Shown here one piece after another: positions 1,218 through 1,912 of a stretch of 9,309 nucleotides of DNA (its first letter is position 1; each line of letters begins with the position of its first letter). The translations under genes were made by a program, and so were the position numbers. Under the pieces are notes generated by a model that had not been told where the DNA came from, made no database searches, and was given only the letters and a program-made list of their open reading frames with translations. The DNA comes from Planctomycetota bacterium (lineage in GTDB: Bacteria > Planctomycetota > Phycisphaerae > WQYP01), in NCBI GenBank assembly GCA_021799715.1, contig JAJYZY010000090.1, positions 1-9,309 on the forward strand, given 5' to 3'.

Positions 1218-1442
1218 TCAGGCCTGTTTCCGGGGATCATTGTGATCCACCATTGGAAACCCAGAAAATTCTACAGACATTACAAGGCTCTCCGGGATCA
1301 GCGCGGCATAATGCCTCCGGCATATTTCCGGCGAATTGCCCATCAGTGTAGCAATTTTGTATAGACTTTCACCCTTCATTGCCAATTGGCTGCCAAACGT
1401 GTGGCGGTAGTGCAGACAACCCCATGGCAGACCGAATTGCAT
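1218..1442 (-). pseudogene. Tyrosine recombinase (phage integrase family), C-terminal remnant
   Basis: The 74-residue frame matches only the last part of a tyrosine recombinase catalytic domain. HYRHTFGSQL (11-20) carries the box II arginine (R13) and histidine. KIATLMGNSPEICRRHYAAL (29-48) carries the helix before the nucleophile and the likely catalytic tyrosine, Y45. A complete integrase is about 300-400 residues; the N-terminal DNA-binding domains and the first catalytic arginine are absent. The frame stays open upstream to a TAG near 1530, but the residues there do not resemble an integrase, so the truncation point is close to 1440. The ATG at 1442 is only the first methionine of the frame and has no clear ribosome-binding site. 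The remnant sits about 165 bp from the 3' end of the initiator tRNA gene, the usual place for an island integrase. It cannot be a working recombinase as it stands. Confidence 0.8.
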
Positions 1443-1570: not shown

Positions 1571-1606
1571 AATAAAAAAAGCACCCTTTTGGGGTGCCTT
1601 TTTTAT

Positions 1607-1608
<2 letters not shown>
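1571..1608. terminator. Bidirectional rho-independent terminator after the initiator tRNA
   Basis: The stem is GCACCC (1581-1586) paired with GGGTGC (1592-1597), with a 5-base loop. Seven A flank it on the left, giving a U7 tract for minus-strand transcription. Six T follow on the right (1599-1604). It begins directly at the 3' end of the tRNA gene, so it ends the tRNA transcript and could also stop plus-strand transcription. Confidence 0.9.
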
Positions 1609-1680
<72 letters not shown>

Positions 1681-1712
1681 ATCAATTTCGCGTTCTGTTT
1701 TGGTTCTCTGTT

Positions 1713-1788
1713 CGCTCGTCGGGCTGCTTTCACATGAGCCTTGCGACGAGCTACTCCCGATTTCTTCGGGACTCTACCCCGCGATCAA
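1713..1788 (-). repeat. tRNA-fMet-like element, copy proximal to the tRNA
   Basis: This 76-bp unit is identical to 1812-1887. Read on the minus strand it starts with the same GATCGCGGGGTAGAG as the initiator tRNA and its leader. The D loop is then replaced by the hairpin TCCCGA/TCGGGA (1755-1771). GTAGCTCGTCG follows, as in the tRNA, and then GGCTCAT, which keeps the tRNA's anticodon CAT. The last part forms a long hairpin: GCTCGTCG (1714-1721) pairs with CGACGAGC (1744-1751), and GGCT pairs with AGCC inside it, with a 3-base bulge and an 11-base loop. There is no T arm and no 3' acceptor strand, so it cannot be an ordinary tRNA. It may be a degenerated, restructured tRNA duplicate or a small structured RNA. 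Confidence 0.85.
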
Positions 1789-1811
1789 TATCGCGTGCTA
1801 TTTTTATGTCC

Positions 1812-1887
1812 CGCTCGTCGGGCTGCTTTCACATGAGCCTTGCGACGAGCTACTCCCGATTTCTTCGGGACTCTACCCCGCGATCAA
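1812..1887 (-). repeat. tRNA-fMet-like element, copy next to the promoter
   Basis: This is an exact copy of 1713-1788, 99 bp further on. All 76 bases are identical, while the 23 bp between the copies do not match the sequence on the other sides. It contains the same two hairpins, the tRNA-like 5' acceptor strand and the GGCTCAT anticodon segment. It lies directly downstream of an extended -10 promoter on the same strand and would be the first unit transcribed. Identity within the units and divergence of the spacers points to recent duplication, gene conversion or selection on the unit itself. Confidence 0.85.
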
Positions 1888-1903
1888 ATTCCGATCGCTC
1901 ATT

Positions 1904-1912
1904 ATTATAGCA
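1904..1912 (-). promoter_or_regulatory. Extended -10 promoter for the tRNA-like/tRNA-fMet array
   Basis: On the minus strand the sequence is TGC followed by TATAAT: a perfect -10 hexamer (1904-1909) with the TGN extension (1910-1912). No good -35 hexamer is found 16-18 bp upstream, which is common for extended -10 promoters. The predicted start near 1897 falls at the first base pairs of the GCGATC/GATCGC hairpin before the first element. No promoter of similar quality lies between this point and the tRNA. Confidence 0.65.

Follow-up and report, generated by a model that had tools for sequence, protein, structure and literature searches.

The initiator tRNA gene (tRNA-fMet) in the stretch of planctomycete DNA analysed here (9,309 nt, hereafter the window) is preceded by two partial tandem copies of its own 5′ region in which arms of the tRNA are replaced by stem-loops. 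The same feature, i.e., a 5′ tRNA part with a palindrome replacing tRNA sequence and an intact tRNA downstream, recurs in other Planctomycetota at the genes for tRNA-Asn, -Pro, -Arg, -Val, -Asp, and -Lys. An open reading frame (ORF) for a GIY-YIG nuclease lies next to the tRNA, as in a homing endonuclease locus, at single Val, Asp, Pro, and Lys loci and at several Asn loci, and was not found at the fMet loci searched.

We tentatively propose (probability about 0.38) that these loci represent an undescribed class of tRNA-gene parasites in Planctomycetota and Verrucomicrobia, which would consist of a small GIY-YIG nuclease and of arm-swapped pseudo-tRNA units proliferating as tandem copies before the tRNA. 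Their palindrome would both blank the nuclease target and exclude the copy from the tRNA pool; at tRNA-fMet the nuclease would be gone and the units may act as a leader switch. If true, a small nuclease repeatedly invades bacterial tRNA genes, the initiator gene among them, and leaves arm-swapped fragments in tandem before the working gene, in what would be a bacterial counterpart of phage SegB amplification. The signature (tRNA 5′ part plus palindrome) is not flagged by ARAGORN or Rfam and surfaces in databases as the C-terminal end of GIY-YIG proteins; direct tests of cleavage, of immunity, and of effects on tRNA output would become possible. Among the papers listed in searches of the freely accessible journal literature, none described bacterial pseudo-tRNA units with replaced arms and GIY-YIG ORFs, and GIY-YIG nucleases at tRNAs with tandem amplification are known already from phages.

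Tandem units ahead of the initiator tRNA gene

A repeat search of the window identified two 76-nt copies (100% identical, spacing 99 nt) upstream of tRNA-fMet and in its reading direction (Table 1), in agreement with the preliminary description of this DNA. A 33-nt piece was present three times, at 1669, 1772, and 1871, the later two copies sharing 91 and 70% identity with the first at spacings of 103 and 99 nt. Met(CAT) was the sole tRNA called by ARAGORN in the window and scored 64 bits with Rfam model RF00005 at 1607–1680 (cut-off E up to 10). At this cut-off Rfam returned eight matches in the window, none of them overlapping the units, and the gathering score was reached by the tRNA alone.

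Table 1. Features of the tRNA-fMet locus in the window (positions in nt).
Feature	Position	Strand	Remark	Basis
Intact initiator tRNA-fMet (CAT)	1606..1681	-		ARAGORN; Rfam RF00005
Unit 1, pseudo-tRNA-fMet unit	1812..1887	-	promoter-proximal	repeat search; relatives
Unit 2, pseudo-tRNA-fMet unit	1713..1788	-	tRNA-proximal, identical to unit 1	repeat search
Hairpin 2 of unit 1	1854..1870	-	TCCCGA-loop-TCGGGA, replacing D loop	fold, alignment of units
Hairpin 2 of unit 2	1755..1771	-		fold
Hairpin 3 of unit 1	1813..1850	-	GCTCGTCG-CAA-GGC..GCC-CGACGAGC, replacing anticodon arm	fold, alignment of units
Hairpin 3 of unit 2	1714..1751	-	3′ strand (1714–1725) complementary to tRNA bases 1647–1658	inverted-repeat search, fold
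Junction hairpin before unit 1	1880..1898	-	leader pairs with acceptor 5′ strand	inverted repeat and fold
Junction hairpin before unit 2	1780..1795	-		inverted repeat and fold
Junction hairpin before tRNA	1677..1692	-	CGCGA..TCGCG, competing with tRNA acceptor stem	inverted repeat; in centroid, not minimum-energy, fold of 1606–1700
TATAAT, candidate -10 box	1904..1909	-	not reported by consensus promoter scan	read from sequence
Inverted repeat and T run after tRNA, terminator-like	1571..1609	-	also in inverted-repeat search; listed by scan on + strand only	read from sequence

Read on the minus strand, each unit follows the order junction hairpin, CGCGGGGTAGAG, hairpin TCCCGA-AGAAA-TCGGGA (hairpin 2), GTAGCTCGTCG, CAAGGC..GCC, and CGACGAGC. 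The acceptor 5′ strand (CGCGGGG), GTAGAG, and GTAGCTCGTCG are identical to the tRNA, the D loop (CAGTCTG) has given way to hairpin 2, and the anticodon arm to hairpin 3 (8 plus 3–4 bp, with a CAA bulge). These shared parts and the D-loop replacement had been read correctly in the preliminary description; the stem-loop that it described as displaying GGCTCAT, and as replacing the 3′ half, stands in place of the anticodon arm, with the GGC lying in the stem. Because the D loop and the anticodon arm are swapped for stem-loops and the 3′ acceptor strand is missing, the units cannot be tRNAs, and the preliminary description had likewise held that they are not normal tRNA genes; neither ARAGORN nor Rfam called a tRNA in them, and the cloverleaf and paired acceptor stem of a tRNA gene are lacking. 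When folded together with the junction hairpin the units had z-scores of -3.42 and -3.80 (0 and 1 of 200 shuffles as stable), and when folded by themselves of -2.27 and -2.48 (1 and 7 of 200 shuffles as stable).

With TATAAT as a candidate -10 box immediately before unit 1, transcription is predicted to begin at this unit, and the same box together with the terminator-like repeat after the tRNA suggests that the units are probably transcribed as a leader with the tRNA. TATAAT was also found ahead of the units at three loci of relatives (L005, L006, L007). Terminator-like scan matches at 1677, 1780, and 1880 were on the plus strand and were identified as the junction hairpins. An assembly artefact was ruled out by the presence of own, different tandem pairs in two other genomes (G001, G023). 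In a blastn search of phage sequences, matches were confined to the tRNA end of the query among the 20 records listed of 347.

Units in relatives and at other tRNA genes

A unit-specific pattern was scanned across one genome per GTDB species and gave four matches, of which only L003, in a Planctomycetota metagenome-assembled genome (G001), was at a tRNA, namely a tRNA-fMet with two units; ARAGORN found no tRNA at the other three (L001, L002, L004). The nearest order, that of G001, was represented by 28 genomes, and 20 of them had tRNA-fMet matches (the match in G023 partial and elsewhere). The unit, for which the preliminary description had advised a search of related genomes, does occur in them: units were present at tRNA-fMet in six of the 28, with two in G001, two in G023 (on a contig whose end cuts off the tRNA), and one each in G027, G017, G018, and G009 (shortened). 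The tRNA-fMet genes of G010 and G013 had divergent hairpin leaders, and in 12 genomes (G002–G004, G006–G008, G014–G016, G019, G021, G022) none of three unit signatures was found within 700 nt upstream of tRNA-fMet. An alignment of eight unit sequences retained GTAGAG (GGGGAG in one), CCCG..CGGG, GTAGCTCG.CG, and GGC..GCC.

The number of units is labile and amounts to 0, 1, or 2 among near relatives. In a trpB tree G027 (one unit) and G023 (two units) were nearly identical sisters, with G021 and G022 (no unit) in the same clade, and the leaders of G021 and G027 were alike up to the junction. The window units were 79 and 76% identical to those of G017 and G018 over 105–110 columns at a trpB identity of 76%; unit and tRNA aligned, and nothing upstream of the unit did so at E ≤ 1e-3, whereas the upstream leader aligned within the near clade. 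Judged from these alignments, such similarity of the fMet units across 76% trpB identity looks more like selection than debris, and the absence at 12 loci and the loss in G021 and G022 fit dispensability.

The covariance model built from the fMet units also matched units upstream of tRNA-Asn in four genomes (G004, G006, G007, G008), with at least three Asn units in G008, where the contig ends before the tRNA. Copies away from tRNA-fMet, for which the preliminary description had advised a check, thus do exist, but at other tRNA genes. A scan of the order with this model (CM R1; no more than 150 candidates scored in 27 of the 28 genomes) gave 14 matches, eight at fMet and six at Asn, and none elsewhere. 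The pattern GTAGAGNCCCGA..TCGGG likewise gave 14 matches, seven fMet and seven Asn, in nine of the 28 genomes (reversed control: 0). Among 397 genomes of the class it matched in 17, namely the nine of the order and eight others. Asn copies accounted for three of these eight (two tandem units in G117; G367; G121), and no tRNA was seen at the remaining five, which were considered background because the reversed control matched 10 times in the class.

At the tRNA-Arg(TCG) of G009 a copy of this tRNA lies 120 nt upstream, with TCCCGATGGCTATCGGGA replacing the anticodon 3′ strand. The second tRNA-Arg (ACG) of the same genome (L088, 280–400) is preceded by an apparent decayed unit with a degenerate palindrome. 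In a table of 28 hand-picked units (10 fMet, 13 Asn, 1 Arg, 1 Val, 1 Asp, 2 Pro; Lys, L221, left out) the stem-loop was present in all, and the 3′ acceptor strand string was missing in 27 and inside the hairpin in the exception. The hairpins take the place of the D loop and the anticodon arm in fMet units, and the palindromes follow the D arm in Asn, Asp, Pro, and Val units. In a score-based scan of 116 tRNA leaders fMet units ranked low, with short matches (window 13 vs. shuffled maximum 11), and high scores were obtained for tRNA-Thr (L096, L086) and Arg(ACG), which probably stem from neighbouring tRNA genes. Of 163 leaders, 21 (17 at Asn or Met genes) had a 6-bp junction hairpin with the first bases of the tRNA (shuffles: mean 4.6, maximum 12). 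The leaders in this set are related, with many from Asn and Met genes; the loop exceeds 20 nt in some of the 21, and the 5-bp case of the window is below the threshold.

In G025, G024, and G027 the Asn unit terminates with the spacer between tRNA-Phe and tRNA-Asn in copy, those of G024 and G027 carry in addition a copy of a Phe-like T arm (the tRNA-Phe of G024 itself is off the contig), and the tRNA-Asn site of G021 and G026 has no unit. Since the unit ends in a spacer copy and the site is unit-free in G021 and G026, the Asn unit seems to have arisen by tandem duplication of the spacer together with the tRNA, the junction being in the T arm. A recombination-derived repeat family, one of the options raised initially, is supported by this spacer copy, by the labile number of units, and by their presence in relatives and on other tRNAs. 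Downstream of tRNAs in G001 (L119, L044) there are intergenic stretches with many variants of AGCAGGTGA / AACAGGCGATCAGG beside tRNA terminators.

GIY-YIG nuclease genes beside tRNA genes

In G367 an intact tRNA-Asn is followed by an 84-aa ORF, identified as GIY-YIG (Pfam PF01541, E 4.5e-15), that ends inside a second, palindrome-bearing pseudo-tRNA-Asn. Among the best 120 of 244 homologues (E ≤ 1e-8), 51 had RVP in their last 16 residues and 49 ended in RVP..RD, and some of these 120 originated from Phycisphaerae, Pirellulales, and Verrucomicrobia. The RVP..RD C-terminus is encoded by LLNG, the palindrome, and TAA, with the palindrome read in frame; the DNA behind this end was read at five loci (L220, L249, L250, L254, L256).

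Matches to GIY-YIG were found in 25 of 246 genomes of the phylum, at 29 places. At 10 of these ARAGORN called a tRNA within 215 nt, in all 10 cases on the same strand, and no tRNA was found within this distance at the other 19; the chance of a tRNA that close to a random place is about 1/200 (estimated from 45 tRNA matches in the 4.5 Mb of G001). The tRNAs concerned were Lys, Val, Asn, Phe, Pro, Ala, Leu, Asp, and a Gly/Pro site that was counted twice for its two neighbouring ORFs. Pseudo-tRNA, palindrome, ORF, and intact tRNA occurred together at four places, i.e., Val (L222), Asp (L247, where the anticodon arm is exactly replaced), Pro (L230), and Lys (L221), and there was no tRNA copy at the Phe (L229) and Ala (L233) places. 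By eye, a 3′ tRNA piece interrupted by a palindrome, the mirror image of the 5′ units, was seen after the ORF at an Asn locus (L226) and between tRNA and ORF at a Leu locus (L245).

At the level of the order the ORF was present in eight of 28 genomes at 10 places, nine of which abut tRNA-Asn, tRNA-Pro, or a piece of tRNA-Asn (L252 does not). At three loci (L249, L250, L255) one or more ORF-less units are followed by an intact tRNA-Asn or -Pro and then by the ORF; this order of ORF-less units upstream of the intact tRNA and the ORF downstream was found in two genomes with the closest trpB (92%), G024 and G025, and at tRNA-Pro of G019. For five of the six further tRNA types, all but Arg, at least one genome had a GIY-YIG ORF that either separates the pseudo-tRNA from the tRNA or follows the tRNA immediately. 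In the window and the 38 loci fetched for fMet (39 sequences; some places repeated, a few without fMet, mostly about 1.5 kb on each side) nothing matched GIY-YIG at E ≤ 0.1, and no fMet unit was seen to be accompanied by an ORF. Asn units with no ORF in view were found in G004, G007 (contig C17), G008, G009, G027, and G117.

Proposed origin of the units and alternative explanations

For the fMet units themselves we consider the chances about even that they are ORF-less products of a nuclease-driven recombination that duplicates tRNA 5′ ends. Since no GIY-YIG was found at the fMet loci searched, the link to a nuclease is drawn by analogy, from the architecture of the units. According to the proposed mechanism, a GIY-YIG nuclease would cut tRNA genes in the arm region; this step and its site, like cleavage by the proteins of this family in general, are predicted. 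Recombinational repair would then duplicate the tRNA 5′ end and the spacer and leave the intact tRNA last, and copies in which the cut arm is swapped for a palindrome, being neither target nor tRNA, would persist. Additional rounds, or unequal crossing-over between the direct repeats, might add or remove units, and the fMet units of the window would be products of this duplication process without the ORF. They would probably be co-transcribed with the tRNA and then trimmed, and tolerated rather than needed. Points against this mechanism are the fMet and the many Asn units with no ORF in view, the 19 of 29 GIY-YIG places with no tRNA within 215 nt, the hairpins of fMet units at both the D loop and the anticodon arm, and the similarity of fMet units across distant genomes.

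The rtT RNA and tyrT spacer repeats of enterobacteria hold the tRNA 3′ end and follow the tRNA. They have in common with the present units that part of the tRNA is repeated in tandem within its transcription unit; the units described here, in contrast, hold the 5′ part, precede the tRNA, and have hairpins in place of arms. Bacterial group I introns in tRNA genes share a homing endonuclease-linked invasion, whereas here the downstream tRNA is uninterrupted and Rfam gave no intron match in the window. A precedent for the proposed process is provided by the free-standing GIY-YIG homing endonucleases of T-even phages, among which SegB of phage T6 often neighbours tRNAs and causes a tRNA segment to be amplified in tandem (PMC13096335). 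An ORF beside tRNA genes of many isotypes and tandem repeats of a tRNA segment arising by recombination are common to both; the present cases differ in being in bacterial genomes, in that the repeats are broken tRNA copies with an arm swapped for a palindrome, and in that no ORF was found at fMet.

A possible but rather unlikely alternative is a plain partial tandem duplication of the tRNA followed by insertion of a dispersed palindrome, which would involve no nuclease, with the copies kept by drift and lost by crossing-over. The palindrome TCCCGATNNCNATCGGGA, which is similar to that of the units, is indeed dispersed in 18 of the 28 genomes of the order (control 0) and was mostly away from tRNAs in 22 contexts read (L162–L183), so palindromes may arrive without a GIY-YIG nuclease; a second such palindrome lies within the Asn unit in G027 and within the pseudo-copy of tRNA-Asn in G024. 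The labile copy number and the lack of an ORF in view at fMet, Arg, and many Asn units also agree with plain duplication. However, it leaves unexplained the GIY-YIG ORFs at identical junctions, the intact tRNA that follows the 5′ units in the cases read, and the similarity of fMet units in distant genomes. The narrower idea that hairpin 2 is merely an inserted dispersed palindrome was likewise weakened by the GIY-YIG junctions and is retained as a rival. GTAG- or CGTC-tagged REP elements and the palindromic elements of Rickettsia are short dispersed palindromes that also occur in Planctomycetes and sometimes inside genes (PMC3733652). Like the GTAG/CGTC type, the palindromes here are short and dispersed and each unit hairpin has GTAG ahead of it; this GTAG, however, is tRNA sequence, and in none of the 22 dispersed contexts was a GTAG, which would be unpaired at one end of such a REP, found within 6 nt of either end.

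Under the other alternative, which we regard as unlikely, the units are a selected leader switch: hairpin 3 would open and release its 3′ strand for pairing with tRNA-fMet in the D-stem/anticodon region, so that the precursor is misfolded and unprocessed and the units tune the output of initiator tRNA. In six unit-bearing fMet leaders the minimum energy was 9.3–13.2 kcal/mol better than that of the cloverleaf-enforced fold, and for four of these leaders none of 60 shuffled versions gave a gap as large, compared with 4 of 60 for G018 and 2 of 60 for G009; the difference was 0.1 in the zero-unit leader of G021. The pairing is partly built in, however, as a tRNA-identical strand sits inside the unit hairpin, and hairpin 3 is expected to form first during transcription. 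For Asn units the differences were 1.6, a value reached by 9 of 60 shuffles, and 9.1, reached by 2 of 60, and the values for Asn of G117 (0.0) and Pro of G019 (4.6, 6 of 60) say little since the enforced structure was not a cloverleaf. Retention of the unit between distant members of the order favours a switch; the lack of units in G021 and G022 and the different numbers in G023 and G027 speak against it. Compensatory changes, a point raised in the preliminary description, were not found in the eight-sequence fMet alignment, where no pair was changed on both sides, and CM R1 has no such changes behind it. In the leaders of G009 and G010 five of 53 predicted pairs were changed on both sides with pairing kept (one in hairpin 2, three in the next hairpin), in a comparison of two sequences in which the second hairpin is poorly aligned. 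The units may act as the regulatory or processing leader suggested earlier, with the TATAAT just upstream and the strong alternative pairing with the tRNA in favour of this. The tRNA-fMet genes of G009 and G010 (L010, 1370–1612; L040, 1252–1490) have leaders of about 190 nt with several extra hairpins before the unit-like part.

An initiator tRNA mimic or decoy titrating initiator-binding factors, as initially suggested, or a stable small RNA is very improbable, since in spite of the CAT in the window loop and the tRNA-like 5′ part, CAT is missing from the other seven of the eight aligned units, the acceptor bases are altered in G001 (TCCG in the unit against GGGG in the tRNA), and six further tRNA types show the same architecture.

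Downstream of the tRNA, on the minus strand of the window (1218–1442), there is a short ORF with the motif RHTFGSQLAMKGESLYKIATLMGNS..HY that resembles the C-terminal end of a tyrosine recombinase. It matched an NCBIfam integrase at E 0.066 only and no Pfam integrase, and it is possibly a remnant of an element integrated at tRNA-fMet.
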